Positions 6,575 to 54,008 of a DNA stretch of 64,000 bases are shown one piece after another. Position 1 is the first letter of the stretch. The number at the start of each line of letters is the position of its first letter. The notes below the pieces were generated by a model. The model saw only the letters and a list, made by a program, of their open reading frames with translations. It searched no databases and was not told the origin of the DNA. This DNA is from a virus. Location: positions 1 to 64,000 of the IMG/VR virus record IMGVR_UViG_3300037258_000352. One strand, written 5' to 3'. Made by a program: the position numbers and the translations under genes.

Positions 6575-6831
6575 CACAGTGCGTACTTAGTGTCGACTGC
6601 GAACTCGGGCTGCATGCGGCAGATGAGCACCCTTGCGGCCAACACAGCGAACCACCAGGAACGCCATGCCGATATTGTGAGGACCCCGTCCCGATGGACG
6701 GATCCTCGTGCCCGAAATGTTGGACACCGATCACGATCCCCTTAGCGAAGGCTCTGTTCGCGCCTTACGGGATCTCGGTTGATCCATGGCCTAACGATCG
6801 CCTTGATGAGAGTACCGGAGGTACCCGGTGA
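6571..6831 (+). CDS. Zinc-ribbon protein
   Basis: 86 aa from GTG 6571, which overlaps the preceding stop (GTGA). Central CRYCEDPVPMDGSSCPKCW is a CxxC-CxxC zinc ribbon; the N-terminus is Cys/His-rich too. Role in the head gene cluster unknown. Confidence 0.7.
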   Translation: MTQCVLSVDCELGLHAADEHPCGQHSEPPGTPCRYCEDPVPMDGSSCPKCWTPITIPLAKALFAPYGISVDPWPNDRLDESTGGTR

Positions 6832-11003: not shown

Positions 11004-13151
11004 ATGACAATTGAGCAGCTCAGAGAGCTGATCGAGCGCCTGCAGGCGGACGCCACGCAGGTCACCAGCGACGAACTCGCCCAGGCCCGGTCTTTCATCC
11101 GGGACCAGCGTAAGCACCTCGCGGAGCAACCCGCGTCGGATGACGTGATTACCGGGTTGGAGGAGCTCGGTACGTCTTTCAAGACGGTCAAGGGTGTGCA
11201 GGAGACCCGTTCTGCTGACGCCGCGAAGTTGGAGGAGACCCGCAGGGGTCTACTCGCGGACCTCGACGACGACGAGCCCCCCGCTGCTGCTGGTGCTGAG
11301 GGTGACGCGCCTACCGGTGACGCGCCGGCGGACACCCCACCGGTGGAGCCGACTGGTGACGACACCGGCCAGACCGCCCCGGAGATCCCCACGCAGGGCG
11401 CCCCTGCCGACGCTCCGGCCCCCACCGCGGACGCTGGTACCCAGGTTGATGCGCCCCTCGCGGTCGCTGCTGGTGGCGGCAACGTCCCAGCCCGCCGGGC
11501 CCCGATCGGTACGTTCCGCACCGGTGGCGGCAACACCCCGACCCAACGGCCAGCGGCGATGATCCAAACCGCGACGACCGCTGCCGGTGGAGCCCCCGGG
11601 TTCGTGCAGGGCCAGAAGATCAGCAGCACCGCTGAGCTTGCGCTCGCGGTCACCGCGCAGCTCCGCGCGATGTCCTCCGGTCGCGGTGGCACCGGGGAAA
11701 AGGTGTACGTCGCGAACACCGCGATCACCTACCCGGAGGAGCGGCAGCTCCGGTCGAAGGACTGGGTTGGGAACTTCAGCAAGATCGAAGCGGTCACCGG
11801 GGAGCAGGCCCTGGTGGCTGCTGGTGGGTTGTGCGCGCCACCTCAGACTCTGTACGACGTGCAGGTCATCGGGTCGGTGCGCCGGCCGATCCGGGACGCG
11901 CTCGCCCGGTTCCAGGTCGACCGTGGTGCGATCCAGTTCCGGCCCAACAGCTCGGCCGCGACCGCGTTGACCACCGGCACCGGTACTGGTGTCGACACGT
12001 GGACCGTGGAGCAGGACGCCTCAAGCTCGGGGGACACCAAGGGTTGTTATGTGGTGGACTGCCCGTCGCTGCAGGAAGCTGAGATCCAGGCCATTTACCT
12101 GTGCTTGGAGTTCAGCAACGTCACCGCCCGCTTCGACCCGGAGACCACCGCAGCCAACATTCAGCAGGGCATGATCGCCCACGCTCGGCGCGCGGAGAAC
12201 GAACTCCTCCGGCAACTGCAGCTCGGGTCGAAGGTCTTGTCCGGTGCGCAGGTCGTCGGTGCGTCCCGCGACATCCTCGTCTATTTGGACAAGGCCGTCG
12301 CCTACTACCGCAACCGGCACCGCATCGACACCACCGTCACCCTCACGTTGCTGCTGCCCGCGTGGGTGCTGTACGAGATGCGGTCGGACCTGGCCCGTCA
12401 GATGGCTGCGGGGGACTGGGCCTCAGCCTTGTCGGTGTCCGACGCGATGATCATGGCGTGGTTCGGTGAGCGGGGCGTCAACGCCGTCTTCCATTTAGAC
12501 GGTGGCATCGGTGGCGTCAACGAGGTCCAAACCCTCACCGTGACCGGTACCCCCACCGGCGGTAGCTACACGTTGACGTTCAACGGGCAAACCACCGGCG
12601 CGATCCCGTACAACGCTGCAGTAGCGGACGTGCGGACCGCGTTGGAGGCCCTGTCGAACATCCAATTCGGGTCCGTCGCCGTCGCTGGTGGACCACACCC
12701 GGGGACCGCGATCACCGTCGCGTTCGGTGGTGACTACGCCGAGACCGACGTCCCGCAGATGACGGCCACCGGCTCGTTCACCGGTGGCTCCTCACCGGCG
12801 ATCGCGGTGACCACCACGACCACATCGTCTCTGACCAGCGTCGTCAACGGGGTGTCCATCGCGTCGCAGGTGTACGCCAACGCCGCCGCCGGGGCCGCGA
12901 TCCCGAACTACCCAGCGCAGATCGATGCGCTGCTGTTCGTGACCGGCACCAAGCTGTTCCTCGACGGCGGGAACCTCGACCTCGGGCTCGTCCGGGACTC
13001 CTCACTGAACTCCAGGAACCGTTACCGGCAGTTCTCCGAGACGTTTGAGGGCGTCGCTGACCGCGGTATCGAGAACCTGCGGCTCGTCCTGTCCGTCGTG
13101 CCCAACGGTTCCACCGTCGGCACGGTCAGCCCGTCCAGCGTCACTTCCTAA
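11004..13151 (+). CDS. Major capsid protein with N-terminal scaffold-like region and Ig-like insertion
   Basis: 715 aa; the ATG at 11004 follows GGAAAGGCCCCC. Residues 1-90 are coiled-coil and 90-190 acidic Pro/Ala-rich, which is scaffold-like. The HK97-fold shell follows. Before the typical C-terminus (KLFLDGGNLDLGLVRDSSLN) sits an inserted ~105-residue Ig-like domain starting NEVQTLTVTGTPTGG (res ~508-612), closely matching one in the tail tube gene at 14008. Substrate of the upstream protease by context. The 209-bp leader (10796-11003) holds a CACAC/GTGTG hairpin but no gene. Confidence 0.88.
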   Translation: MTIEQLRELIERLQADATQVTSDELAQARSFIRDQRKHLAEQPASDDVITGLEELGTSFKTVKGVQETRSADAAKLEETRRGLLADLDDDEPPAAAGAEGDAPTGDAPADTPPVEPTGDDTGQTAPEIPTQGAPADAPAPTADAGTQVDAPLAVAAGGGNVPARRAPIGTFRTGGGNTPTQRPAAMIQTATTAAGGAPGFVQGQKISSTAELALAVTAQLRAMSSGRGGTGEKVYVANTAITYPEERQLRSKDWVGNFSKIEAVTGEQALVAAGGLCAPPQTLYDVQVIGSVRRPIRDALARFQVDRGAIQFRPNSSAATALTTGTGTGVDTWTVEQDASSSGDTKGCYVVDCPSLQEAEIQAIYLCLEFSNVTARFDPETTAANIQQGMIAHARRAENELLRQLQLGSKVLSGAQVVGASRDILVYLDKAVAYYRNRHRIDTTVTLTLLLPAWVLYEMRSDLARQMAAGDWASALSVSDAMIMAWFGERGVNAVFHLDGGIGGVNEVQTLTVTGTPTGGSYTLTFNGQTTGAIPYNAAVADVRTALEALSNIQFGSVAVAGGPHPGTAITVAFGGDYAETDVPQMTATGSFTGGSSPAIAVTTTTTSSLTSVVNGVSIASQVYANAAAGAAIPNYPAQIDALLFVTGTKLFLDGGNLDLGLVRDSSLNSRNRYRQFSETFEGVADRGIENLRLVLSVVPNGSTVGTVSPSSVTS

Positions 13152-14007: not shown

Positions 14008-14979
14008 ATGTCAGGTCAGTACGACGACGCGGGGACACTGTTCGCGCTGGGATTGCGGCTCACGAAACTCGATGTTGACGGCTCCCCCCTATCCGGGGAC
14101 CAGAACTGTTACGTCACCGACTCCCTCGTGTCGATGGGCGCCGGCCTGAACTTCACCAGCAACAAGGTCGTGGAGCAGGTCAACGGCCGCGGTCAAACCT
14201 GCGTGTCCTACCAGGCCCCCGACACCCTGCAGTCCGCGTCTATCAGCCCGTTGCAGGTGTGTGTCCCCGACCCCAACATTCTCGGGTTCCTTATCGGTGG
14301 GGACGTGATCCTGACCCCGTCGGAGGTACAGTCCCTCACGATCACCGGTGGCCCCACCGGGGGAACGTTCACCCTCACCTATTCCGGGCAGACCACCGCG
14401 ACGATCGCGTACAACGCCGCCGCTAGCGCGGTCCAAACCGCTTTGGAAGCCCTGTCGAACATTGACCCCGGGGACGTGACCTGCACAGGTGGCCCACTCC
14501 CCGGGACCCCCGTTGTGATCACCTTCGGGGGGCAGTTCGCGGGGACTGACGTCACCGAGATCACCACCTCGTCCGGATCACTGACCGGGGGCACCACCCC
14601 AACCGCAGCGATCTCCACCACCACCCCCGGTGGGACCGGCAACGCCATCGGGTGGCGCGCACCGCAAGTCAACGTCGTCCCCGTCCCCAACGGCGTCGCG
14701 ATCGAAGCGTGGGCCAACGCGATCGTTGACAACGCTGTCGCCTCAGTCCTCCCGTACTGGCACTTCATCTGGCCCCGAGTCCGATTGACCCTGTCGAAAT
14801 CGTTCACGTTGGACGCGGCGACCGTGTCGATCCCAGAGTTCGATGGGACCGCGGAGCAGAACGGGAACTTCGGGACCGGCCCCGTCGGGGACATCACCAT
14901 CCCCACCGACCGCTGCTGGCAGTTCGTGCGGGAAGCTGTGGACGTGACCGCGACACCCGGCTTCATAACCGTCACCTAG
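14008..14979 (+). CDS. Major tail (tube) protein with Ig-like domain
   Basis: 323 aa, ATG after AGGGAGTAGGG. The N-terminal ~100 and C-terminal ~110 residues look like a siphovirus tail tube subunit. Between them lies an Ig-like module (EVQSLTITGGPTGGTFTL, res ~109-205) nearly the same as that in the capsid protein. Such modules usually decorate the particle surface. It precedes the connector genes instead of following them. Confidence 0.65.
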   Translation: MSGQYDDAGTLFALGLRLTKLDVDGSPLSGDQNCYVTDSLVSMGAGLNFTSNKVVEQVNGRGQTCVSYQAPDTLQSASISPLQVCVPDPNILGFLIGGDVILTPSEVQSLTITGGPTGGTFTLTYSGQTTATIAYNAAASAVQTALEALSNIDPGDVTCTGGPLPGTPVVITFGGQFAGTDVTEITTSSGSLTGGTTPTAAISTTTPGGTGNAIGWRAPQVNVVPVPNGVAIEAWANAIVDNAVASVLPYWHFIWPRVRLTLSKSFTLDAATVSIPEFDGTAEQNGNFGTGPVGDITIPTDRCWQFVREAVDVTATPGFITVT

Positions 14980-22177: not shown

Positions 22178-25100
22178 GTGGCTAAAATCGCCCGCATCCT
22201 CGATGAGGCGTCAGTCCGGATCACTGCGGATACCCGCGCGGGGGAAGCTGACGCGGCGGCTGCGGGCCGCCGGTTCGGTCAGGCGTTCGCGGCTGGTGCG
22301 GACGCCGGCGCCGGTAAGTCCGATGTGTCGGACAAGCTCGCGAAGGACATCGAGACGTCGTCCGCGCGGGTCGTTAAGGCCCGGGACGCGGAAGCGAACG
22401 CAGCGGGTCGGGTTCGGGTTGCTGAGGCCGCGCTATCCGACTTGCGGGACAAGGAGCACGTCTCCGCTGGCCGGTTGGCTGCAGCGGAGGAACGGCTCGA
22501 ATCAGCGAAGCGGGCGCAGACCGCCGCGGCTACGGCGTTGGAAGGCGCGGAAACGAAACTCGCGTCGGCCCGTGCCGCGGCGGTGACCCTGACGGATAAA
22601 CTGTCCAATTCGTTCAAAACGCTGACCACGAACACCGACGGCAACACTAGCGTTGTTAGCCGGCTGCGGTCCGCGCTTCTCGGTCTTGGTGGTGACGGGG
22701 AAACCGTCGCTAAGAAAATCGACGCCGCGTTCAAAGCAGTCAATATCACTGGTCTTCTCACCAATTTAACGAAAATTGGTGGGGGGTTGATCGCGGCCGG
22801 GGTCGGGGCCTTAGCCGCGCACGCCGCGATCGGTGGATTGATCGAGGGTGTCGTCGGTCTGATCGGGTCGATCGGTCAGTTATCGGGGTTAGCTGTCGCC
22901 TTACCAGCAGCGATCGGTGCGGCTGGGCTCGCCCTGGCGACGTTGAAAGTCGGGTTCTCCGGGTTCGGTCAGGCACTGAAAGACGCTGGTAACCCCGCGA
23001 AGTTCGCGACCGATCTGCAATCCCTGGCCCCCGCCGCACAGGCCGCCGCTAAAGCGATCGCGGGCCTGGACCCCGCTTTCAAAGCGCTCAAACTCGATGT
23101 GCAGCAACGACTATTCGATGGGTTGTCCGCATCTATAACGAGTTTGGGAAATACGTACCTGCCGATATTGCGGACAACCCTCGATGGGGTTGCTAACGGT
23201 TTCAACCTTGCGGGGAAAGAAGTTGCGGGCCTGTTGTCGGCGCCGTCAACGGTTAACCAATTGACGGTTGCGTTCGGGCAGCTCCGGTCGGGGACGTCAT
23301 CAGCGACCGGAGCGATCGCTCCGCTAGTTGCGGCGTTCAAAGACATTTTCGTGGTCGGTGCGACGTTCGTGCCCCGGCTTGGGCAAGCGATCCAAACGCT
23401 AGCGACGAACTTCGCGGCGTTCATTGACAAAGCTAAGGACTCCGGGCAGCTCGCGACGTTCCTGCAGAACGGGATCACCGCCGCGAAGCAGTTCGGGCAG
23501 GTGTTCCTCAACATCGGGTCGACCCTTGCGGGGGTGTTCCACGCGGCGCAGTCCGCGACCGGTGGGTTCCTCAACTCCCTAGTGTCGGTCACCACGGAAA
23601 TGCGGAACGTCGTCAACTCCGTCGCCGGTCAGCAAGCCCTGACCGCGTTCTTCGCGGGGACCCAAGCCGCGATCAAGGCCCTACTCCCCGTAGTCGGTGG
23701 GCTAATCCAGGTCATCGGGGCACTGGGCCCGGCCCTGCAAAGCATCGGCACCGTCGCCGGGCCGATCATCGGTCAGCTACTCAACAACCTGGTCACCGGG
23801 ATTAAGAACGCGATCCCCGGGGTGACGGCTTTCGCTGATGCGTTCGCGCAGGCACTGGGGACGTTGGGCCCCCTGTTGCCGCCGCTAGGGTCTGTCGTGT
23901 CCGGGATCGGGACCGCGCTGGCCGGCGCCTTAAAGATCGTCACCCCGCTATTGAAAGTTTTCGTTGACGCGTTGAAGGATCTTGGTCCCATCCTCGGCCC
24001 GATCGCGACGGTAGTGGCGTCTGTTGCTCTCAGCATGGCTGGGATCGGGGTCGTTACTAAGACGTTGACCGCTGCGTTCAATTTACTTAAGCCAGCGATC
24101 TCGGCGATCACCACGGTGTGGAAAGCGTTATCTTTGGCGTTTGAGATCTCCCCGATCGGGGTTCTAGTCCTCGCGATCGCCGCGCTGGTCATTGGTGTGA
24201 TTTACGCCTATAACCACTTCAAAACGTTCCGGGACATCGTCGATGGTGCCCTCCGGGGAATCGGCGACGCGATCAAAGCAGTGGTCGGGTTCTTCAAGAA
24301 CTTAGGGCCGGACATCGTCAAGGCGCTAGAGGCGGTCGGGAAAAAAGTCGAAGACGCAGCGAAAGCCGCATGGGATTTCCTTTTCTCCACTCTCCCCGCT
24401 GCGATCGACAAGGTCACAAGCTTCCTCCTGAGCCTACCCTTGAAACTCGCGTTCGCTCTCGGGTTCATCGCCGGAGAGGTGTATAAGGGTGCGGTTGCTG
24501 TGTGGGATTTCTTGTGGAACACAGTACCCGCTGCGATCGACAAAGCGATCGGTTTCCTCGCTGGTCTCCCGGGTCGTGCTGTCGACGCGATCTCATCGCT
24601 CGGGCCGAAGATCGCGCAGGTCGCGACCGACGCGTGGAACGGGTTCCTCAAGATTTCGTCTGACATTGGTAACTCGATCCTGTCATTTGTTGAGGGGATA
24701 CCTGGGGCGGTGGGTGGTTTCCTGTCGTCACTTCCCGGGATAATCAGCAACGCGGCGTCGGCCGCATGGCACGGATTCCTCGATACCACGGAATCCCTCG
24801 CGAACTCAGCTGTCGACTTCGTCGCATCACTCCCAGGCAGGATAACCGGGTTCTTCGCCGACGCTGGGTCGTGGCTGTACAACGCCGGTGTGAACCTGAT
24901 CAACGGGATCATCTCCGGGATCGCGTCCGCCGCTCAGGGGGTCCTGGACTACATCGCGAACTTGGGGTCGGAAATCGCGTCCGGGTTCGCTGCGGCGGTC
25001 GGGATCCATTCCCCGTCGACGGTGTTCGCGGGGTTCGGGCAGAACATGGGTCAGGGCATCATCCAAGGGTTGAAGGCGATCACCCCCGCCGCTGTCGACG

Positions 25101-25348
25101 CAGCCGCGAAACTAGCCGCGGCGGTCACCAGCTCCGGGCAAATCAACCTGGGTCCGGGTGGGACCCCCCAGTCAGTGTTCGTCGGCGCGACCAACGCGGC
25201 GATCGGGTCCGGGAACCAGGGCATCGACCTGGCTGGGTTGTCGGGGGCGTTCGCTGACGCGATCAACGCCGCGCAGCTCGTCGCGAAAGGCGCGGACCTC
25301 ACGATGGTCGTCAACCGCGGCAACCGGAACCTAGCGAGGCGCGCCTGA
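22178..25348 (+). CDS. Tape measure protein
   Basis: 1056 aa, GTG start. Long Ala-rich helical N-terminus (heptads to ~150), several hydrophobic segments (about 190-270, 600-700), and repeated domains containing AAWDFLFSTLPAAIDK and AVWDFLWNTVPAAIDK, then a Gly/Ala-rich end with SGFAAAVGIHSPSTVFAGFG, usual for siphophage tape measures. It sets tail length, roughly 150-160 nm by the usual 0.15 nm per residue, and may act in DNA entry. Confidence 0.9.
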   Translation: MAKIARILDEASVRITADTRAGEADAAAAGRRFGQAFAAGADAGAGKSDVSDKLAKDIETSSARVVKARDAEANAAGRVRVAEAALSDLRDKEHVSAGRLAAAEERLESAKRAQTAAATALEGAETKLASARAAAVTLTDKLSNSFKTLTTNTDGNTSVVSRLRSALLGLGGDGETVAKKIDAAFKAVNITGLLTNLTKIGGGLIAAGVGALAAHAAIGGLIEGVVGLIGSIGQLSGLAVALPAAIGAAGLALATLKVGFSGFGQALKDAGNPAKFATDLQSLAPAAQAAAKAIAGLDPAFKALKLDVQQRLFDGLSASITSLGNTYLPILRTTLDGVANGFNLAGKEVAGLLSAPSTVNQLTVAFGQLRSGTSSATGAIAPLVAAFKDIFVVGATFVPRLGQAIQTLATNFAAFIDKAKDSGQLATFLQNGITAAKQFGQVFLNIGSTLAGVFHAAQSATGGFLNSLVSVTTEMRNVVNSVAGQQALTAFFAGTQAAIKALLPVVGGLIQVIGALGPALQSIGTVAGPIIGQLLNNLVTGIKNAIPGVTAFADAFAQALGTLGPLLPPLGSVVSGIGTALAGALKIVTPLLKVFVDALKDLGPILGPIATVVASVALSMAGIGVVTKTLTAAFNLLKPAISAITTVWKALSLAFEISPIGVLVLAIAALVIGVIYAYNHFKTFRDIVDGALRGIGDAIKAVVGFFKNLGPDIVKALEAVGKKVEDAAKAAWDFLFSTLPAAIDKVTSFLLSLPLKLAFALGFIAGEVYKGAVAVWDFLWNTVPAAIDKAIGFLAGLPGRAVDAISSLGPKIAQVATDAWNGFLKISSDIGNSILSFVEGIPGAVGGFLSSLPGIISNAASAAWHGFLDTTESLANSAVDFVASLPGRITGFFADAGSWLYNAGVNLINGIISGIASAAQGVLDYIANLGSEIASGFAAAVGIHSPSTVFAGFGQNMGQGIIQGLKAITPAAVDAAAKLAAAVTSSGQINLGPGGTPQSVFVGATNAAIGSGNQGIDLAGLSGAFADAINAAQLVAKGADLTMVVNRGNRNLARRA

Positions 25349-31582: not shown

Positions 31583-32145
31583 CCGACGCCCCAGACCCCG
31601 GCCTCACACCCGGTTACATCCTCCCACCACCCCTATCCGACACCGCTCTGATGACCGTCGGTGACGCCCGGAAACTCCACGAGTCGATGGACGTGACCGT
31701 CCGGACGGTCGGCACGTTCAATGAGCGGCTCGCTGGTGGAGAACGCCGGTGGGCGGTCCTCACCGCCCTCAGCCTCGCGATCGTCCTGGTCCTCGGTGGG
31801 GTGATCTGGCTCGGTTACGGTGTCCGTGGCATCGCCCGCTGTCAGGCAGCGCAGAGCGACGCGATCATCAGTGCGTCCGCGGCGTCCCGCACGACCCGCG
31901 ACGCCGCCGATGACCAGCAAGTAATCCAACTGGGCCAGTTCCGGGGGCAGCTTCAGCAGCAGATCGCGTTGCTCAACGCGAGCCTGAACCCCGATTCAAC
32001 GGTCCAAGACCGGATCGGCGCGACTAAGGGTTACCTTGACCAGCTCCAACAGTCCGACCAAACCGCGTTGAAGAGCCAGCAAACGATCCTCGCCGCGAAG
32101 AAGACGAGAGCGGATAACCCCCTACCGACGGGGAAGTGCACATGA
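31579..32145 (+). CDS. Single-pass membrane protein with coiled coil
   Basis: 188 aa from GTG 31579 (GTGA overlap). Soluble N-terminal 55 residues, one span (VLTALSLAIVLVLGGVIWLGY), then a ~100-residue Gln/Ala-rich coiled coil. Directly upstream of and overlapping the endolysin; a lysis-associated membrane protein by position. Confidence 0.5.
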   Translation: MTDAPDPGLTPGYILPPPLSDTALMTVGDARKLHESMDVTVRTVGTFNERLAGGERRWAVLTALSLAIVLVLGGVIWLGYGVRGIARCQAAQSDAIISASAASRTTRDAADDQQVIQLGQFRGQLQQQIALLNASLNPDSTVQDRIGATKGYLDQLQQSDQTALKSQQTILAAKKTRADNPLPTGKCT

Positions 32146-33158
32146 TTTTCGGTGTGGATGTTCACCCCCAGTTCCAAGCCGGCCTGAACATTGAGCAGGT
32201 CCGGAGTGAGGGGTTCGATTTCCTGGCCGCGAAAGTGTCCCAGGGGACCACCGTCTACGACTCCCAGGACTGGCTGCGGCGAGCGAAAGCGTGCGGGCTG
32301 CTGGCCATGGGCTACCACTACCTAGAACCGGGGAACGAGGTCGCGCAAGCCAGGACGTTCGCTGCGCAGCTCCGCGCGGGCGGGGTCCCGGGGATGCTCG
32401 ACGCGGAATACCCCCTCGCGAACGGGGACACCCTGTCCGTCCCCGGGATCCAGTCGTTCCTCACCGCGGCCCGGTCGTTCGGTGCGCAGGTGCCGCTGGT
32501 GTACCTACCCCACTGGTACTGGCAGCGGATGGGGTCCCCTGATTTGAGTGGCCTCCCGGGGTTGTGGGCGTCGTCGTACGTCACCGGGTCAGGGTTCGCG
32601 GCCGCGCTGATCGGTGCAGTCCCCCCGTTGTACTGGGCGGACTACGGGCACCGCCCGGTGCAAGTGCTGCAGTTCACCGACAAGGGTGCCGTCGCCGGGA
32701 TGAGTATCGACGTCGACGCCTACCCCGGTACCCGCAGCGAGCTCGTCGCGCTGCTGTCCGGTCTCAACGGATCCACCAGAAGACGGAAGGAATCGACCAT
32801 GACCTACCGGCTCGACCCCACCACCACACCCACCGGTGCAGCGGATGACGCGTCCCCGGACGGCACGTGGCCGGCCGTGGAGGACACCATCACGTCCCCC
32901 GGCCCGGCGGGTGGATGGCCAGGGCGGGTCCTGCAGCACCTGACGTTCGGGTTCCGTGGCGGGTTCATTCAGGAGGCCTGGTCGGCACCGTCGGGGCATC
33001 ACTACGTGACCCGGTACGACCCGACCGCGAAAACGGGTGGTCAGTTCGTCGACGGGTTCGTCACCCAGAACTGGGAGCTCCCCACCGGGGACATCGCGTT
33101 GATCGTTCGCTACGCGACCCGCGCTCGTGGTTCGGTCACACCCGAGGTAGAGCACTAG
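32142..33158 (+). CDS. Endolysin, GH25-like muramidase
   Basis: 338 aa; ATG 32142 follows GGGAAG and overlaps the upstream stop. Residues 1-205 show GH25 features: FGVDVHP at the start, MLDAEYP (acidic catalytic pair region), WASSYV, LYWADYG and SIDVDAYPG. A ~100-residue C-terminal domain with Trp/Gly-rich strands likely binds the wall. It would cleave glycan strands of peptidoglycan. Confidence 0.75.
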   Translation: MIFGVDVHPQFQAGLNIEQVRSEGFDFLAAKVSQGTTVYDSQDWLRRAKACGLLAMGYHYLEPGNEVAQARTFAAQLRAGGVPGMLDAEYPLANGDTLSVPGIQSFLTAARSFGAQVPLVYLPHWYWQRMGSPDLSGLPGLWASSYVTGSGFAAALIGAVPPLYWADYGHRPVQVLQFTDKGAVAGMSIDVDAYPGTRSELVALLSGLNGSTRRRKESTMTYRLDPTTTPTGAADDASPDGTWPAVEDTITSPGPAGGWPGRVLQHLTFGFRGGFIQEAWSAPSGHHYVTRYDPTAKTGGQFVDGFVTQNWELPTGDIALIVRYATRARGSVTPEVEH

Positions 33159-36070: not shown

Positions 36071-36718
36071 TCATTTCAGGAGCCGCAGGTTCTGCGCCCC
36101 CATCTCGTACGCCATCACCGTGAGCAGGCCCGCGATCAGGACCGCCGCGATCCCGTTCCACACCGCGCTACCGGTCAGGATCTGCAAACCGATCCCCACG
36201 ATCGCCAACGCCAGACCGGCGACGTCCATCGCGTCCTCCGCGGCCTGCGTTTTCATGGCCGTGTCGGTGGTGGTCCGCAGGAACCGAACCCACGGGATCC
36301 CGGCCCGTTCCCGGTTCAGGGTCCCGACCGCCCGCAGGAGCGACGTTCCCTCCAACATCGCCGAGCCGGTGAGGACCGCGAGCGCGACCAGCATCGACAT
36401 CCCCGCGACCTGCGGGTCGAGGATCGACTTCACACCCTCGTACGCGGCGAATAACCCACCGGTGACGAAAATGTTGATCGCCGCGACCAGGCCCCAGAAG
36501 AACCTGGCCTTCGTCCACCACTTCGAGTGCCACACCCCAGCGAGCAGGATCGGTGCGGTCAAGGAATCGACGAGGGAGTGGGTTGCTTCGGCGAGCATCG
36601 CCGCGCTACCGGTGATGACCCCGAGGACTGTTTTCGCGACCAGGATCGCGAGGTTCACACCGAGGGAGTAGAAGAGGTTCCCGGTGGTTTCGCTGGCCTC
36701 GACGGTCGTGGTGCTCAC
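36071..36718 (-). CDS. Cation diffusion facilitator-like transporter
   Basis: 215 aa, GTG after GACACGGAGGACAGC. Six predicted spans. The motif MLAEATHSLVDS in the second span matches the metal-site HxxxD of CDF proteins, and AEDAMDVAGLA in the fifth span supplies the second acidic pair. The usual cytosolic C-terminal domain is absent, so it is a minimal CDF. Probably exports Zn2+/Mn2+/Co2+-type ions by proton exchange. Unusual cargo for a phage; host-derived origin likely. Confidence 0.65.
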   Translation of the reverse strand: MSTTTVEASETTGNLFYSLGVNLAILVAKTVLGVITGSAAMLAEATHSLVDSLTAPILLAGVWHSKWWTKARFFWGLVAAINIFVTGGLFAAYEGVKSILDPQVAGMSMLVALAVLTGSAMLEGTSLLRAVGTLNRERAGIPWVRFLRTTTDTAMKTQAAEDAMDVAGLALAIVGIGLQILTGSAVWNGIAAVLIAGLLTVMAYEMGAQNLRLLK

Positions 36719-45989: not shown

Positions 45990-46258
45990 CGCGGACCTCC
46001 TAACCGACTGAGCAAATCCACGAGGGGACCCACCTCAGTCACCGGTACCGATATTTGCCTCGTCGGATCCGAGTCAAGGTAAAACGACCAAGCGTCTCGT
46101 TCCGGGCTCCGGATCACGATCAGCGTCGATGGTGCCCCATCATGCCGCCGACCGGGTATCGCCACCCGAAGCTGCTCATTCTGCGGGACCTCCGCGTGCG
46201 GGCCAGGCAGGTCAACCAACTGCACGACACCTCCCCTATCGGAACGGACTGTCACCAT
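45980..46258 (-). CDS. Hypothetical protein
   Basis: 92 aa. ATG 46258 chosen to limit overlap with the upstream gene. Beta-rich with an AWSFYLDSDPTRQISV segment. Confidence 0.5.
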   Translation of the reverse strand: MVTVRSDRGGVVQLVDLPGPHAEVPQNEQLRVAIPGRRHDGAPSTLIVIRSPERDAWSFYLDSDPTRQISVPVTEVGPLVDLLSRLGGPRWR

Positions 46259-46500
46259 CGGTGGGTGTCCGCTGTCCACCCGAAGAACCGGGATAAACGA
46301 CGCGGGTACCAACCTCGCCCACCACATTTACGGCACGCCCCCCGCACCACCACCCGGAAGATCAACGAAACCGCTTTCCGCCACCCAGCACCGTTGCACC
46401 GCAGGCACGCCTTTTCGGGACTTCGCCACGCGTTGTAGAGCATCGCCCCGGACCCACCGACAACGGCGACACCGGCCGCCTCAATCACGATCATGTCCAC
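46252..46500 (-). CDS. Membrane protein with DnaJ-type CxxCxGxG motifs
   Basis: 82 aa from GTG 46500 after GGGAGG. An N-terminal span precedes CLRCNGAG and CRKCGGRG, the paired zinc-binding motif of DnaJ-like proteins. First gene after the GTCACG repeat cluster. Confidence 0.55.
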   Translation of the reverse strand: MDMIVIEAAGVAVVGGSGAMLYNAWRSPEKACLRCNGAGWRKAVSLIFRVVVRGACRKCGGRGWYPRRLSRFFGWTADTHRW

Positions 46501-46524: not shown

Positions 46525-46690
46525 TGTCACGGGCACCTCCCGTGACACCGTCACGGCTAGTCACGGGCCGTGTCACGGCGTCGTCACGCGGGTTTGTCAC
46601 GGGCTGTCACGCGTGACAAACCCGGTGACCTCACACCCACCGCCCGCACCGTCCCCCCCGACTGTCACGGCTGTCACAGGGCCCGTGTCA
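46525..46690. repeat. Cluster of GTCACG repeats (iteron or transfer-site candidate)
   Basis: About ten copies of TGTCACGGG-like units in 165 bases: direct at 46525, 46549, 46560, 46571, 46583, 46595, 46605, 46663 and 46672, inverted at 46539, and one perfect palindrome TGTCACGCGTGACA (46605-46618). It lies between the end of the transfer-like operon and the next operon. Could be an origin, a partition site, an operator, or the recognition locus of the TraB-like ATPase. Confidence 0.6.
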
Positions 46691-47137
46691 TACCTTGCTC
46701 GCGGCCATACTCCTTCGCTGGTGCAACATCCGCGCACCGCGCTCCAGCCTATGGAAATTGCGCATCAACAGCGGGGTCACTTCCCGCCGAGCGGTACGTA
46801 AATCGCCCACACCGAACAGTCGCCTAAATTCGGACAGGTCATCACACCCGGAGTCGTCTCCCCATGACTGGGAGTACCTGACGTCGTAGCCGTGGACTTT
46901 GTGGAGCCACAGGGCGATGGCTTGGACCCCAGCGACGAGGACGAGCCCGTATTCGTGGGGTTTCGCGTCGCAGTCGTTCCCGGAGAGTTCCACTTTCCCT
47001 TCCGCGCCGCCGCGGATGGGTTGGACATGCGCTTTCCGGGTTCGGATTTTCAGTTCCGTCGCGGTCAACGCATGCCCAGCTTCGTGGATAGCGACACCCA
47101 TGAGCAGATCAATCTCACGGGGTGGGGTGGGGGTCAT
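46688..47137 (-). CDS. HEAGH metallopeptidase-like protein
   Basis: 149 aa, ATG overlapping the ATPase stop. AIHEAGHALTATEL gives the HExxH zinc site, as in M41/FtsH-type peptidases, but there is no AAA domain. A later acidic residue could be the third ligand. Last gene of the transfer-like operon. Confidence 0.65.
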   Translation of the reverse strand: MTPTPPREIDLLMGVAIHEAGHALTATELKIRTRKAHVQPIRGGAEGKVELSGNDCDAKPHEYGLVLVAGVQAIALWLHKVHGYDVRYSQSWGDDSGCDDLSEFRRLFGVGDLRTARREVTPLLMRNFHRLERGARMLHQRRSMAASKV

Positions 47138-48579
47138 GCTGCTGCCTCATTCCCCCCGACCTGCGGGTTCCGCACCGGAATCCACCCACGGTCAGACTTC
47201 TCGATCCGACCGTCCTTGGCCATGTACTTATAGAGACTGGCCCTTGACCACCCGCAATCAGCGAGGAGGTTGATAAACGAGTTCGCTTCCAACCGGTCCG
47301 TGCCGCTGGCCAGGAACTCGGTGACTACTTCGGCGAGGACCTCCGCGAACTCCTCCGGGGTCAGACCGTCTTTCGGGGGGTCCCCGATCATCCGGGCGAC
47401 TGTGGGGTGGGTGGGGGCGTCCGGGTCAGCGAGTTCCGTGTCATCGTCAAGGTCGGATGCGTCGAGCTCGAAATCAACGTCTCCGTCGTCGTTGGTGACG
47501 ATGATCCGGTCTCCGACCAGGGCCAGTTCCGACTCCTCAAGCTCGGGGTCGTCGTCGTAGAGCTCCTCGAGCGCGGCGAGGTACTCCGCGTCGTCGGGAT
47601 CGAACCCATCGATTTCGTCGTCATCAGCGTCGACGTCTATGGGGGTCGGTGCGACGGCTTGCGCCGCAGCGACCAACGCCGACCCAGTCACAGGACCGGG
47701 GACGATCATCCCGTTCTGCTTGACTAGGTCCAACGGGGTGATGTGAGTGGTCCACAAGTCCCCCAGCGAATCTGCGGTGACCTGGCACATGTCCCCGAGG
47801 TTCGCGGCGACATACGCGGCAGCCGACGCGAACGTGTGCTCACCGACCCCATCGGACCACGACCGGTGGGTCATCAACTTCTCCCGGACCGTCATCCCGG
47901 GACCGACGAGGTAGTGCATCCCGGGGTCGTCGGCGCCCCACTGCGACGGTTTCGCGCCGGCGTTGACGACTTCCTCTGGGAGGGAGTACTGGTCGTATTC
48001 GGAGTCGGTGATGCCGTACGCGCGGTAGGACCCCATCTGGTTCCGGACGGTGGTGGGGATGTTGTCCCAGGTTGGTTGCTGGATGCTGTACGTGAGTTGC
48101 CCACCAGCGGACCGCAACGCGACCGCGAGCCCGACGATCTCCTTGGACTCGGCCAGTCTCCACGCCTCTTCGATGTGGATCCGCAGGAACCGCAGGCTCG
48201 ATGACGGGGCCCACTGCTTGAGACCTTCCCTCGAGAGGTGGCTGGTCCGCTCCGGCAGGGTGCGGTTGAGGAGTTGCCGCAGGAGCCGCTTCGCGCGACC
48301 GGGGTCGATCTCGTACATCTGCAGGCACCCAGCGACGTCTTGGTAGGACTGGATGCCTTTGACGGTGTCAATCAAAATCTGGTCGATGCGCATCGCACCG
48401 CAGGTCAGCAGGACCGGGAGTTCCCCCCACGTCTTCCCGGAGCCGGTGGTCCCGGAGATCAGGCAGTGGACCCCACCCTCGGGTCGAGCGATTCTGAACA
48501 GGCCGGTTTCCCCGTCGGAGCGGCGGCTGACGGGGATCCCGGAGAACGGGTTCGCGCCCTTGAGGAGCTTGATCTTCAT
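47134..48579 (-). CDS. TraB/FtsK-like DNA translocase ATPase
   Basis: 481 aa, ATG 48579 after TAGGAGTGAAG. Walker A GTTGSGKT (~res 45), Walker B-like QILIDTVKG, then HIEEAWRLAESKEIVGLAVA, ALRSAGGQLTYSIQQPTWDN and GAKPSQWGADDPGMHYLVG, features of actinomycete plasmid transfer ATPases. An acidic linker (~320-400) leads to a winged-helix-like end. In Streptomyces, TraB alone moves double-stranded DNA between hyphae; here it would need the adjacent membrane proteins, since it lacks spans of its own. Confidence 0.75.
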   Translation of the reverse strand: MKIKLLKGANPFSGIPVSRRSDGETGLFRIARPEGGVHCLISGTTGSGKTWGELPVLLTCGAMRIDQILIDTVKGIQSYQDVAGCLQMYEIDPGRAKRLLRQLLNRTLPERTSHLSREGLKQWAPSSSLRFLRIHIEEAWRLAESKEIVGLAVALRSAGGQLTYSIQQPTWDNIPTTVRNQMGSYRAYGITDSEYDQYSLPEEVVNAGAKPSQWGADDPGMHYLVGPGMTVREKLMTHRSWSDGVGEHTFASAAAYVAANLGDMCQVTADSLGDLWTTHITPLDLVKQNGMIVPGPVTGSALVAAAQAVAPTPIDVDADDDEIDGFDPDDAEYLAALEELYDDDPELEESELALVGDRIIVTNDDGDVDFELDASDLDDDTELADPDAPTHPTVARMIGDPPKDGLTPEEFAEVLAEVVTEFLASGTDRLEANSFINLLADCGWSRASLYKYMAKDGRIEKSDRGWIPVRNPQVGGNEAAA

Positions 48580-48581
48580 GA

Positions 48582-49409
48582 CTACTTCACTCCTACGAGC
48601 AGACCGGGCCACGGTTGGGCATCTTCGATGGGGTTGAGGTGCATGACGGTGACGTCACAGATTTGGGCGTTGCGGGACTTCGGGCGGGCGTAGACCTTCA
48701 TTGATCCGGGGGGGAACCCGTGCGCGGACTCCACCGAAGCGATGTCCCGCTGGAACTCCAGCATCGTGTCCCCCGGGGCGAGCCGGAGTGTGCCTTCGCT
48801 GCGGAACTCCGACACCCGCCGCAACGCGAGGGACGCCCCGTCGTGGCCGGCCATCTTCATGGGGGTGTCGGGTGGGTTCTGGGCGGCGAGGATCTCCGCG
48901 AGCTCCGCGACCCGATGCCTAGCGTTGATCCTGGTGTTCCAGATCGCGGCCAACGCGGACCCACCAGCGAAGAACGTCGCGATGGTGAACCCGTGGGTGG
49001 AGAACACCCACCCCGGGTTACCGGTGGTGAAGGTGATGAACCCGGTGATGGTGCACAGCGACAGCCACGCCCCCCCGAACGCGGTGGTGGCTACCCCGTG
49101 CCAGCGGGCGGTCCCGGTGTGGGACCGTTGGGTTTGCCACACCGAGTACGTCATCCCGATCGTCGCGACCATGATCAGCGCCACGGTCCCCGCCCGGCTC
49201 CACGCGGTTTCAACGAACGCGTGGAGCACGGTCCCCGCTAGCCAGAACAAGCCGAGGACGACCCACGGGATGAAGTGGACGGCGTGGTCGTGCAACGCGT
49301 GCCCGACCACGCCTCCGGATCCGGTGCGGGCACCCGTCCCAGCGCTGGGACCGCGCGGAGGAGCCGGCGGGCGTGTCTGCCGGGTGCTCGACCTGAATCC
49401 CTTACCCAT
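48582..49409 (-). CDS. Four-span membrane protein of the transfer operon
   Basis: 275 aa, ATG after AGGGGAACGGAA. Spans around residues 45-160 (FIPWVVLGLFWLAGTVLHAF etc.) then a ~110-residue cytosolic domain. Immediately upstream of the soluble ATPase; probably its membrane anchor, as in split FtsK/TraB systems. Confidence 0.6.
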   Translation of the reverse strand: MGKGFRSSTRQTRPPAPPRGPSAGTGARTGSGGVVGHALHDHAVHFIPWVVLGLFWLAGTVLHAFVETAWSRAGTVALIMVATIGMTYSVWQTQRSHTGTARWHGVATTAFGGAWLSLCTITGFITFTTGNPGWVFSTHGFTIATFFAGGSALAAIWNTRINARHRVAELAEILAAQNPPDTPMKMAGHDGASLALRRVSEFRSEGTLRLAPGDTMLEFQRDIASVESAHGFPPGSMKVYARPKSRNAQICDVTVMHLNPIEDAQPWPGLLVGVK

Positions 49410-49424
49410 TTCCGTTCCCCTGTC

Positions 49425-49817
49425 TTACGCGGCGTTACGCCGACGGTTGCCGCCGTTGTTCTGATTATTGTTCTGTCCACCCTGACCGTTGTTCTGGCCC
49501 TTCCGGGAACGGCTCGGGACGAACACGGCGCTGAGGATCCCTTCCGCGTTGCCCATCATTTTCGAGCAATGCGACATCAGCAACGCGGACCGGTGAAGGT
49601 CCCGAGCGATTCGAGCTGCCGCTTGCTCCTTCTCTTTCTGCGACATCAACGCCCCCCGCGACGGGGAATGAGCGAGACGCTTTTTAGCGACCCGGGAAAT
49701 GATTTGCATCTCCATTCCAGCGTTGAGGAACAAGTTAGCCATGTCGTGGATCCATGCGCGCATCGCACCGGGGTCACGCAATACTGCTTCGTCCGCTGTG
49801 CGCCTCGTGATACCCAT
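49425..49817 (-). CDS. Helical protein with Asn/Gln/Gly-rich tail
   Basis: 130 aa. Helical residues 1-95 (MANLFLNAGMEMQIISRVAK), then a low-complexity Asn/Gly/Gln tail ending RRRNAA. Part of the transfer operon; unknown function. Confidence 0.55.
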   Translation of the reverse strand: MGITRRTADEAVLRDPGAMRAWIHDMANLFLNAGMEMQIISRVAKKRLAHSPSRGALMSQKEKEQAAARIARDLHRSALLMSHCSKMMGNAEGILSAVFVPSRSRKGQNNGQGGQNNNQNNGGNRRRNAA

Positions 49818-49861
49818 TGCCTTTTACCCTCTCTCGATTTCCTTGGTGTGCCTGACTTCGA

Positions 49862-50365
49862 TCAGCCGTTGCAGCCGGCGCAATGGACGGGGATCCCCGC
49901 GCAACCCTTCCCGCTGCGGGACATGGCCAGCAGCATCACCAGCGCGAGGACAATCCCTAACCCGACTGTCCCCTCAGCGACCGCGGCGCCGTGGACCCCG
50001 AACCACGTTCCGATCCCGTGGATGATCCGGTAGAGCCCGTACATTCCCAGCGACGCGCTGCCGGCGATCAGGGCGTATTTCACGATCGGGCCGGCGGCGA
50101 TGACGTAGTCGATGGCTTCGACTTGGGATCCGTCGGGGATCCCGATGGGGATGGTGGGTGCGCCTGGGGTGACGAACACCCGGTAGGTGACCTGCCCCGG
50201 GGTGACCGGGGTGAGTTGCTCCGGGGTGCGGACCGCGACACCCATCTCCTGGTACCGGCCCGCCGTGTACATCACGTCAGCGAGGTAGCCGTTCAGGACC
50301 CGTTCCTCGATCTGGGTGATCGTGGTGGTCGGGTGGGTGGTGGGGATGAGCTGGGTGGGTGACAT
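49862..50365 (-). CDS. Membrane protein of the transfer operon
   Basis: 167 aa, ATG. Soluble N-terminal ~90 residues, two spans (~95-150), Cys-rich end (GCAGIPVHCAGC). Spd-like by position. Confidence 0.5.
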   Translation of the reverse strand: MSPTQLIPTTHPTTTITQIEERVLNGYLADVMYTAGRYQEMGVAVRTPEQLTPVTPGQVTYRVFVTPGAPTIPIGIPDGSQVEAIDYVIAAGPIVKYALIAGSASLGMYGLYRIIHGIGTWFGVHGAAVAEGTVGLGIVLALVMLLAMSRSGKGCAGIPVHCAGCNG

Positions 50366-50389
50366 GGCGGGGTCTCCGGGGTGGGTGGG

Positions 50390-51256
50390 TTACGCCGCGA
50401 GGACGCGGGCGAGTTGGCGGGCGGTGGTGTCGGTGACCCGGTACCCCACCGGGAGGCGGGTGGGGAGCTCAGTCATGAGGACCCGACGGCCGGTGGTGAG
50501 GCCCCGCTGCCCCCGCTCGTCCCGGAGTTCCCGGGCGGCGGCGTAGATGGTGGGGTCCACCCCGGGGGGTGGGGTGGTGGCGTTCGGTGTGGGGACGAGT
50601 TCCAGCTCCACCCCGGGGTGCGGAGTCCCGGGGTGGGCTGGCTCGTCCCCCGCGGGGGTGTGGGTGGGGGGCACCGTCACCCGGGGGAAGTCCCCCGCGG
50701 GGTCGAGGTCTGGGGTGGGGTCACCCGTGGTGCGGTCCGAGAGGCCCCGGAGGTCGGCCAGGAGGGATTCGAGTTCCGCGTCGACGTCGTCGAGTTCACC
50801 CGTGGGGGAGGTGTCCAGCTCGGTGCGGATCTCCGCGAAGTGTCGACGGACCCGGGGGGCGGCTTCCGCTAGGAGCAGGATCAGGCCGGGGGCTACGGAG
50901 TGCAGCAGGATCCCCGACGGGACCGCTGCGGCGGCGGACACCCAAATGTTCATCGCCCAGGTCGCGATGCCGGCGAACCACATGGTCCCGGTGAGCCAGG
51001 GTTCTTTCCGGCCGTAGTCGGCGAGGATGCTCCCGAACACGATCGCGGTCCCGAGGGTGATGGAGGCCATTGGGTCGAGGAGCCACGCGATCCACCACTC
51101 GAAGCTGTGCCAAGGGTGGCCTGCGGATGCGAATCGTTGGACGTTGACCATCGTGAACACGAGGGCCAGCACAGCGACGGCGGTCAGGGCGTAGGCACCC
51201 CAGCGGCCCATGCGGGTCAACCATTCCGCCTCGTCGCGCTGGTTGGTGGTGTCCAT
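50390..51256 (-). CDS. DUF2637 (SpdB-like) plasmid spread protein
   Basis: 288 aa; ATG 51256 follows GGGGAAAGGACC. Four spans: WGAYALTAVAVLALVFTMV, then DPMASITLGTAIVFGSILAD, WFAGIATWAMNIWVSAAAA and LHSVAPGLILLLAEAAP, the DUF2637 pattern of Spd proteins that aid intramycelial plasmid spread. A long Pro/Thr/Asp-rich linker and a helical C-terminus (DPTIYAAARELRDERG, TARQLARVLAA) may bind DNA. Heads the operon. Confidence 0.75.
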   Translation of the reverse strand: MDTTNQRDEAEWLTRMGRWGAYALTAVAVLALVFTMVNVQRFASAGHPWHSFEWWIAWLLDPMASITLGTAIVFGSILADYGRKEPWLTGTMWFAGIATWAMNIWVSAAAAVPSGILLHSVAPGLILLLAEAAPRVRRHFAEIRTELDTSPTGELDDVDAELESLLADLRGLSDRTTGDPTPDLDPAGDFPRVTVPPTHTPAGDEPAHPGTPHPGVELELVPTPNATTPPPGVDPTIYAAARELRDERGQRGLTTGRRVLMTELPTRLPVGYRVTDTTARQLARVLAA

Positions 51257-51423: not shown

Positions 51424-52260
51424 ATGACGGGATCAATCGGGGCCGGGCTACGCCGGCGACAACTCGCGGAGATACTCACCGAGCTCCGCAAGACCAGCGG
51501 TAAAGACCAGGTCGCCGCTGCTGCGGCGTGTGACTGCTCCCGACCTCAGATCAGCAATTTCGAGTCCGGGAGATACGTCCCGAGCCGGTTGGAGCTCCCC
51601 GCCCTGCTGGAGTGCTACGGCGCGCTGGACCGGCTCCCTGAGCTGGAGGAACTCCGGGCCGCGGCGAACGAACCAGGCTGGTACTCGACGTATGGCCTGC
51701 CGGTGTGGTTGCAGTCCTATGTGCGGCTTGAGGACGACGCGATCCAGGTTCGGTGTTTCGCGTCTGGTCTGGTCCCGGGGCTGCTGCAAACCCAGGACTA
51801 CGCCCGGACGGTTCAGCAGGAACACGGGGCCAGCACCCCGGAGGTTCAGCGGCGGCTCGCGGTCCTCGCGGGACGGCAGAAGCGGCTAGGGATAGGGATG
51901 ACCCTGTCCGTGGTGGTGTCGGAGGCGTTGCTGCACCTGACCGTGTGTATGGGTGAGGTGGGGGTGGAACAGCTCGCGAGTCTCGCGGCGACGAGGGTCG
52001 CGGAGGTCCTGGTCCTGCCGTACTCGGCGGCCCTGACGCGGGGGATCGGTCACTGGACGGTCCTCGACTTCCCGATGGGGGTGTCCCCGGTCGCGTATGA
52101 GGAACATGCGATCGGTGGGCACCTAGCGGATGATCGGGGACTGGTAGGGAAGTTGGCCTCGCTGTATCAGGAGCTGCACTCCGCGGCTCTATCAGTGGAG
52201 GACAGTGCAACGAAGATCAGGCAGGTCATGGGTCTAACCAAGGAAGGGACAAGGCGATGA
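51424..52260 (+). CDS. XRE-family regulator with DUF5753 (Scr1 type)
   Basis: 278 aa, ATG. N-terminal HTH (residues ~12-70: RRRQLAEILTELRKTSGKDQ, CSRPQISNFESGR) then the DUF5753 ligand-like domain (VRCFASGLVPGLLQTQDYAR). Such proteins pair with DUF397 partners across Actinobacteria and control development or act like antitoxins. Being at a divergent switch with a palindromic operator, it is the best immunity repressor candidate here. Confidence 0.85.
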   Translation: MTGSIGAGLRRRQLAEILTELRKTSGKDQVAAAAACDCSRPQISNFESGRYVPSRLELPALLECYGALDRLPELEELRAAANEPGWYSTYGLPVWLQSYVRLEDDAIQVRCFASGLVPGLLQTQDYARTVQQEHGASTPEVQRRLAVLAGRQKRLGIGMTLSVVVSEALLHLTVCMGEVGVEQLASLAATRVAEVLVLPYSAALTRGIGHWTVLDFPMGVSPVAYEEHAIGGHLADDRGLVGKLASLYQELHSAALSVEDSATKIRQVMGLTKEGTRR

Positions 52261-52478
52261 AGATCGAAGGCGTCGACGTTGGGCAGGTTGGGGAGTTCGT
52301 GAAGGCGACCGCGAGCGAGTCGGTGGACAAGTGTGTGTCCGTCGCGGTGACGAGCACGGGGCATCGGGTGGTGCGGCATTCCACGCGGGTCGGTGGTGCG
52401 GAGATCCCGTTCGATCGGGATGAGTGGTCCGCGTTCCTCGTCGGGGTCCATGCGGGTGAGTTCGACATCGCCGACTGA
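52257..52478 (+). CDS. DUF397 protein
   Basis: 73 aa, ATGA overlap with the XRE gene. GHRVVRHSTRVGG and EWSAFLVGVHAGEFD are the DUF397 core; the usual N-terminal CVEVA pattern is only loosely kept (KCVSVAV). Partner of the XRE regulator, possibly its co-regulator or toxin. Confidence 0.85.
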   Translation: MKIEGVDVGQVGEFVKATASESVDKCVSVAVTSTGHRVVRHSTRVGGAEIPFDRDEWSAFLVGVHAGEFDIAD

Positions 52479-53550: not shown

Positions 53551-53618
<68 letters not shown>

Positions 53619-53622
<4 letters not shown>

Positions 53623-54008
53623 ACCGTAAACCGTTCACCACCGACACCACTTTCCTGTTCGTTGACGGCCCCCCTGACGGCCGGAGGTTCCCGATCACCC
53701 TGGCGTGGTCACCGGAAGCACCGTTGGAGGTTTGGTTCCTGTTCCCCCACCCGCACCCGTGGTGGATGGTGTCCCGGGACCTCCTCGCGGGGGGCCTGAC
53801 CACCGACGCTGGTCAGGGGGATGTGAGAGTCAGCCCGCACCGCCCGGCCGGTGTCAATATCGTGCTCCACGGTCGGCAGTTCAGTGTGGCGGTGAGGGTA
53901 TCCCGCCGGATGTTGCGGGTGTTCCTGAACAAGACGTTTCAGCGGATCCCCGCCGGGCAGGAGGTGATCCCGGAGCTAGACCGCGAGTTACAGGAGCTGA
54001 CTGGCTGA
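53619..54008 (+). CDS. SsgA-family (SALP-like) sporulation/cell-division protein
   Basis: 129 aa, ATG after GAGGAGCAAAGCG. PLEVWFLFPHPHPWWMVSRD, LLAGGLTTDAGQGDVRVSPH and LRVFLNKTFQRIPAGQE follow the SsgA-like order: strand, W-x-ARELL-type helix, G-x-GDVR-type turn, C-terminal helix with PxG. SsgA-like proteins control septum placement and spore wall formation in morphologically complex actinomycetes. The phage copy may redirect host division or sporulation. The identification rests on motif order. Confidence 0.75.

Follow-up and report, generated by a model that had tools for sequence, protein, structure and literature searches.

The window analyzed here covers the initial 64 kb of a virus record of 104,286 bp. 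It contains a minus-strand operon of six genes between positions 51256 and 46688 (51256-50390, 50365-49862, 49817-49425, 49409-48582, 48579-47134 and 47137-46688), with intergenic gaps of 24, 44, 15, 2 and −4 nt in this order. In a preliminary description it had been presented as one overlapping operon. The single-strand arrangement is borne out, but strict overlap is limited to the last two genes, encoding an ATPase and an HEAGH protein, which share 4 bp. The two genes encoding the halves of a TraB protein, the second of which is this ATPase, would overlap too if an upstream GTG at 48612 were used as start.

TraB-N (48582..49409, minus strand) represents the membrane or N-terminal half of the translocase and ends at the conserved WPG linker. 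It matches positions 5-211 of NF041214, the NCBIfam plasmid_TraB profile (E 4.6e-14), with further matches to phrog_24831 (6e-4) and, by phmmer, to a Nonomuraea TraB (4e-13). A TM segment was seen in its hydropathy profile, and the N-terminal membrane domain of TraB resides on a separate upstream gene. TraB-C (47134..48579, minus strand) is an FtsK-type ATPase with the Walker A motif GTTGSGKT; it matches positions 249-626 of the same profile (E 1.3e-43) and phrog_24831 (5e-38), its C-terminal region aligns with the DNA-binding end of TraB, and tblastn found matches to 50 actinomycete plasmids. Its NF041214 score does not reach the equivalog cut-off of 800 bits; the same holds for other diverged TraBs (402 bits for the Nonomuraea TraB). 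The two genes match successive parts of one TraB profile, with the break placed by the alignment at the WPG linker, in agreement with the split membrane/ATPase pair proposed earlier. TraB-C has its own GGAG ribosome site and an ATG 2 nt past the TraB-N stop, and the two reading frames differ by a shift. In contrast, TraB is a single open reading frame in all 34 homologues that we read. The TraB of this element sits on a very long branch of 3.16 changes per site. When solved structures were searched with the TraB profile, FtsK ranked first, which, together with the plasmid TraB match, speaks against an unrelated P-loop family; the assignment to a transfer module of the actinomycete plasmid or AICE type holds. 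A structure model of the ATPase, built from a three-row alignment, was discarded (pLDDT 34). Single-protein scans of IMG/VR and GTDB gave no close relatives of the ATPase, HEAGH, SpdB-like or VirD4 proteins, and the first IMG/VR match was rejected because it was a DnaB helicase.

The first gene of the operon (50390..51256, minus strand) encodes a 288-aa membrane protein with three TM helices predicted from hydropathy. By phmmer, it is a homologue of the protein encoded directly 3′ of traB in two linear Streptomyces plasmids, NZ_CP108371 (2.4e-26) and NZ_CP109420 (8.4e-25), and it also matches phrog_25954 (1.7e-6). The protein had been described as DUF2637/SpdB-like; of this, the SpdB likeness stands, but DUF2637 membership was dropped in the absence of a Pfam match, whereas counterpart proteins of other plasmids do score for this domain. 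The second gene (49862..50365, minus strand) encodes a small protein of 167 aa with a single C-terminal TM segment by hydropathy and no family in Pfam, PHROG or NCBIfam searches. The third gene call (49425..49817, minus strand) is a small soluble protein of 130 aa without meaningful match in family-profile searches. The HEAGH protein (46688..47137, minus strand, 149 aa) is indeed present as last gene of the operon. Sub-threshold Pfam matches (M50 0.03, M41 0.1) make it a possible metalloprotease of M50/M41 type. Homologues were found neither in plasmids nor in viral contigs; the pRL1 traB region also encodes a small M50B-like protein.

Between the operon and the next minus-strand gene lies a conspicuous repeat array (46525..46673, minus strand). 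It contains 10 copies of CGTGAC, seven of them extended to CGTGACA, in both orientations, and a perfect inverted repeat of 13 nt. This is the densest 6-mer cluster in the 104-kb record, where the runner-up has seven copies, and in 25 Markov simulations short-motif clusters likewise reached a maximum of seven. The array is thus not random; its folding z-score is −2.9. Furthermore, its position and motif are conserved: in 19 of the 34 homologues a TGACA cluster of 4–12 copies within about 250 bp directly follows the traB stop, with a density far above that of its own surroundings, and in one set of the homologues such clusters were counted in eight of 11 relatives. Previous work mapped the clt of pWTY27 by transfer assays and footprinting and found that it contains TGACACC repeats (PMC3583192); in our test, the pWTY27 region showed the same TGACA pattern 3′ of traB. 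Beside traB homologues that lack TGACA, the CCGCACA class published for pJV1 recurs. From the motif and position shared with the homologues and pWTY27, we read the array as the putative clt of this element. The inverted repeat would suit a transcription terminator, but a site with a T-run is missing; the ten copies, which occur in both orientations and have the clt motif, are better explained as a clt. Downstream of the array lies a gene at 46252..46500 (minus strand), for which a longer version from a GTG at 46554 is possible. Its small product combines a TM segment with cysteines of the DnaJ zinc-ribbon type (Pfam DnaJ_CXXCXGXG 4e-5, below cut-off).

Divergent from the operon, an XRE-family regulator with a DUF5753 domain (51424..52260, plus strand; PF19054 8.8e-30, PF13560 7e-11) is followed by its DUF397 partner (52257..52478, plus strand; PF04149 3.7e-7, above cut-off), so that Pfam confirms both genes of the switch noted earlier at this place. 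Several plasmid tra operons have a GntR-type regulator instead; a GntR candidate at record positions 86487-87170 was rejected, as its product matches the T5orf172 family. An SsgA-family sporulation and cell-division protein (53556..54008, plus strand; PF04686 1.2e-17), a WhiB protein and a sigma factor are encoded in the same genome. Outside the window, at record positions 90497-92164, lies an orphan VirD4-type coupling protein. A TrwC-type relaxase was not found, and among the Pfam-scanned proteins, a subset of the genes, there were neither other relaxase nor VirB4 families, nor was a type IV secretion system detected.

The transfer operon is linked to a complete tailed-phage set of virion and packaging genes, as had been proposed. 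On the plus strand of the window are encoded a portal protein (2951..5722; phrog_776 2.4e-95), a head maturation protease or fused head protein (6828..9338; phrog_18402 8.6e-85), a major capsid protein with an extra tail-type domain (11004..13151; phrog_777 3.3e-65), a major tail protein (14008..14979; phrog_792 2.8e-21), a tape measure protein (22178..25348; phrog_305 1.7e-82) and an endolysin of glycosyl hydrolase family 25 (32142..33158; PF01183 2.7e-10); the set in the record also includes a terminase. The record has an even GC content and ends in an exact terminal repeat of 127 bp, as a circular assembly gives. The element is best read as a siphovirus of circular type, probably temperate, with a mycelial actinomycete as host. 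Its genome encodes a DnaB helicase, an HTH_36 protein and an IstB/DnaC-like ATPase; a genome search gave no match for ParA, and Rep was likewise not identified. Neither a tyrosine nor a serine integrase was found (PF00589, PF00239), so that the integrase of an AICE is not seen here. Together with the terminal repeat this is compatible with a stable extrachromosomal prophage state, but no proof of it.

The pairing of TraB with virion genes is already known from Streptomyces phage-plasmids, and the element hence is a deeply diverged variant rather than a new kind. pZL12, pFP4, pCQ3, pCQ4 and the related pSLE1 are circular, carry virion genes and have sizes of about 85–90 kb, below that of the element described here; pZL12 reportedly forms particles. 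For plasmid-phages, one report mentions both conjugation and infective particles and cites pFP4 (PMC4170104). When we re-read pCQ3, its capsid and tail genes and a terminase match turned out to lie next to traA-traB. However, TraB is a single polypeptide in these elements, and that of pCQ3 is only about 25% identical to the split TraB; pCQ3 furthermore has ParA/ParB and an integrase, whereas we found neither ParA nor integrase, and it lacks the VirD4-type protein. Two IMG/VR contigs, 3300047321_000445 (97 kb) and 3300042934_000712 (38 kb), also have traB with 3′ TGACA repeats near phage genes, the latter with a DUF2637 protein upstream. Their TraB is full-length (694–707 aa) and of another clade, and a VirD4 protein is absent. 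With pSVH1, pIJ101, pJV1, pWTY27 and AICEs the element shares an FtsK-like transfer protein of the single-motor type, spread-type membrane genes and clt-like repeats 3′ of the motor, yet it differs from these Streptomyces TraB/clt systems by the split motor, by a virus genome as carrier and by the HEAGH gene between traB and the repeats. FtsK-type motors also occur in Bacillus phages and in Streptomyces phage Gilgamesh; these match only the motor core of pCQ3 (25–29% identity), and a search of the phage collection with our ATPase did not match them.

We consider it fairly probable that the virus carries a TraB-type dsDNA transfer module usable for particle-free passage between hyphae. TraB-N would anchor the machine in the membrane and assemble with TraB-C. 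The latter would form a hexameric FtsK-like motor and bind the array at 46525-46673, whose CGTGACA repeats would be the clt where DNA is loaded. Spread of the incoming DNA through recipient hyphae would be aided by the SpdB-like protein and the small membrane proteins, and the operon may be under the control of the XRE/DUF397 pair. In a quiet state, the genome might persist extrachromosomally and could pass between hyphae or compartments of one mycelium without particles. The element may thus spread through the mycelium as well as by virions, as had been suggested, and the clt-like array strengthens this assumption. Points against this reading are the split and the long branch of TraB, the HEAGH gene between traB and the array, a position not seen in the relatives, and the negative searches for ParA and integrases, which bear on how a quiet state would be maintained. 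More tentatively, a two-subunit TraB with its own clt and the orphan VirD4-type protein might provide lysis-free cell-to-cell genome transfer in mycelia as a second route beside particles.

The clt-like site points to selective loading, in cis, of the element's own DNA, a property that would fit inter-mycelial use and use within one mycelium alike. Instead of passing between strains, the module could serve the lytic or carrier infection itself by moving phage genomes into spores or, in a Spd-type role, across the cross-walls of one infected mycelium. In favor of this, many of the operon's products are spread-type membrane proteins, and SsgA, WhiB and the sigma factor point to a manipulation of hyphal development. 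In studied plasmids, however, TraB and clt account for the inter-mycelial function and Spd genes for spreading (PMC4170104, PMC3218068), and we regard a role confined to one mycelium as rather unlikely.

The split has no precedent among the 34 homologues and may therefore be the mark of a relic, broken at this point, or an indel of the assembly. A non-working leftover of recombination with a conjugative plasmid, disabled by the split, would also agree with the long TraB branch. On the other hand, the six genes are tightly packed, Walker A and conserved residues of TraB-C are intact, and the motif of the dense repeat array belongs to the class that one would expect in this TraB clade. Moreover, a chance frameshift is unlikely to put a good ribosome site and an ATG exactly at the domain linker, and we accordingly hold a relic for improbable. 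Even less credit is due to a phage/plasmid assembly chimera or an indel introduced by the assembly. The frames of the TraB halves do differ by a shift, and the record is known from its assembly without reads; but the exact terminal repeat, the even GC content and the linkage of traB to phage genes in other contigs and pCQ3 all speak against a chimera, and an indel would leave the ribosome site unexplained.

The TGACA class found 3′ of 19 of the 34 traB genes offers an easy means of predicting clt sites. A motor split naturally at its domain linker would, furthermore, let the TraB membrane anchor and the DNA pump be studied separately. pZL12 and its kin have given hints that phages of filamentous bacteria might travel without particles by conjugation-type pumps, but this lead has so far been taken no further. 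Now that the motor and the virion genes are defined to the base, as is the probable loading site, particle-free spread becomes directly testable.

The six minus-strand genes running from 51256 to 46688 are separated by successive gaps of 24, 44, 15, 2 and −4 nt. The fifth (47134-48579) encodes an FtsK-type ATPase; its Pfam FtsK_SpoIIIE match was weak, and it matched the NCBIfam plasmid_TraB profile at 1.3e-43 over residues 249-626. The preceding gene (48582-49409) matched residues 5-211 of the same profile (4.6e-14), and PHROG 24831 divides between both ORFs likewise. Our analyses hence confirm the TraB/FtsK-like ATPase of the preliminary description, and its split membrane/ATPase pair corresponds to successive halves of one profile, here TraB-N and TraB-C. 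In tblastn searches against plasmid and phage sets, the ATPase matched 50 actinomycete plasmids (26-35% identity) and no phage record. The first gene (50390-51256), previously described as DUF2637/SpdB-like, is homologous to the gene that directly follows traB in two linear plasmids of Streptomyces; this plasmid kinship stood, but Pfam did not place it in DUF2637. The HEAGH protein (46688-47137) gave weak metalloprotease matches only. In pRL1, a small M50B-like gene lies about 3 kb after traB, and by analogy small proteins of this type may recur in transfer regions. The operon almost certainly is a TraB-type module, and it is probably functional.

In alignments, TraB-N ends in ...PWPGLLVGVK where intact TraBs read PWPGPS, and TraB-C begins just beyond the PWPG linker. 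The junction reads GGAG, then TGAAG-TAG-TC-ATG; with GGAG ahead of its ATG, TraB-C has a ribosome site of its own. From its sequence, the break resembles a functional division of the gene more than a chance frameshift. An assembly indel is a less likely alternative, kept in view by the lack of relatives sharing the split. All 34 other traB genes that we read are uninterrupted, each with one open frame of 600-830 aa; nine come from plasmids, two from IMG/VR phage contigs and 23 from genomes of actinobacteria. In the tree, the neighbors of this TraB are Thermobispora and Nonomuraea plasmid TraBs; its branch is very long and the support for its placement modest (91/71).

The full record, of which the window is bases 1-64000, comprises 104,286 bp of even GC (61-73%), and an exact 127-bp repeat is common to both ends, as expected of a circular or circularly permuted genome. 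Gene calls and profile searches identified portal, head protease, major capsid, major tail, tape measure, GH25 endolysin and terminase. Judged by recognisable families, the virion, packaging and lysis set thus is complete, in agreement with the linkage to capsid, tail and lysis genes described earlier. Among phages, the terminase is nearest to those of actinobacterial phages (~35% identity); against Streptomyces and Rhodococcus plasmid records identity was 31-39%. Major capsid (11004-13151, plus) and major tail (14008-14979, plus) proteins are both fused to the same repeat-type domain of ~95 aa, which shares 64-68% identity with part of the gene directly before the capsid gene of the Streptomyces plasmid-phage pCQ3. 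Directly before the portal gene, a 956-aa protein (18-2888, plus) of many degenerate GTG(S/T)APLGALAATATG-type repeats starts inside the terminal repeat and matched no Pfam or PHROG family. A cation-efflux family membrane protein is encoded at 36071-36718 (minus; PF01545, 5.4e-23). Genes for WhiB, an SsgA-family sporulation/cell-division protein (53556-54008, plus; PF04686, 1.2e-17) and the XRE/DUF5753 and DUF397 pair (51424-52260 and 52257-52478, both plus), the latter recovered as previously noted, point to a developing, mycelial actinomycete as host. Streptomyces phage Dagobah is likewise reported to carry an ssgA gene (PMC7650747).

Beyond the window, in the later pieces L003 and L004 of the record, an orphan VirD4/TraG-type coupling protein is encoded at record 90497-92164 (L004:6497-8164, plus; PF12696 4e-20, PF02534 3e-16). 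It has relatives in 582 plasmid records and none in 50,697 phage records, and is absent from pCQ3 and both traB phage contigs. The record contains no TrwC-type relaxase, nor any other relaxase among the proteins scanned with Pfam. In DnaB helicase (record 82507-84900, L003:18507-20000 plus L004:1-900, minus), a long intein-like insert separates the N-terminal part from the ATPase part. The record as a whole also has genes for an HTH_36 protein and a DnaC-like ATPase. Further genes beyond the window specify a sigma-70/ECF-type sigma factor (record 87304-87954, L004:3304-3954, minus) and a Mom-family DNA modification protein (record 97297-97989, L004:13297-13989, plus; PF25680, 1.8e-48); the latter gene adjoins one for a ParB-like N-terminal domain protein and overlaps a predicted tRNA-Gly(TCC) at L004:13894-13966.

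The combination of phage genes and plasmid transfer operon is real but, as a kind, not novel, since Streptomyces plasmid-phages already show it. According to PMC4170104, which cites pFP4, these conjugate as episomes and also produce infective particles, and pZL12 is cited in PMC3583192 and PMC4487206. On re-reading, pCQ3 carries traA-traB at 19.7-22.4 kb; its terminase match lies at 26.2-28.6 kb and its capsid gene at 32.8 kb. It also encodes ParA/ParB and an integrase, whereas neither a ParA match nor an integrase was found in the present record. The novelty here lies in the split of the motor, the depth of divergence, the HEAGH gene lying between motor and repeats, the extra coupling protein and a predicted clt, the TraB loading site. 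The module may carry the phage genome from one mycelium to another independently of particles, a reading that we put forward tentatively; its main rival is a role within one mycelium.

A repeat array (46525-46673) lying between the HEAGH gene and its neighbor was first revealed by a self-match. It holds CGTGAC ten times, and seven of these copies extend to CGTGACA. In the rest of the record, 200-bp windows hold at most three CGTGAC, and no other 6-mer is as densely clustered; simulations with a third-order Markov model of the record gave densest 6-mer clusters of 5-7. In our first traB set, 8 of 11 genes carried 4-9 TGACA copies in the 200 bp that follow the stop codon, and at each of these loci no other window was denser. 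In an independent genome set, 11 of 23 genes had 4-12 within 250 bp. These clusters lie directly 3' of traB at loci L009, L012, L014, L015, L017-L020, L030, L031, L033-L035, L040-L042, L045, L046 and L048. Several of the remaining 12 genes have another repeated motif, such as CCGCACA or CGGACG, and other traB clades carry these two in place of TGACA; the published pJV1 repeat, CCGCACA(C/G)(C/G), belongs to the CCGCACA class. The G(TGACA) form also occurs beside the Thermobispora and Nonomuraea traB genes, whose products are nearest in the tree. As positive control, pWTY27 showed six TGACA in the same test; its clt, located experimentally with transfer assays and DNase footprints, holds four TGACACC (PMC3583192). 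Given these clusters and the control, and with the motif length picked after the data were seen, the array most likely is the clt of the present TraB. TGACA clusters directly after traB form a general pattern that can be used for predicting clt sites.
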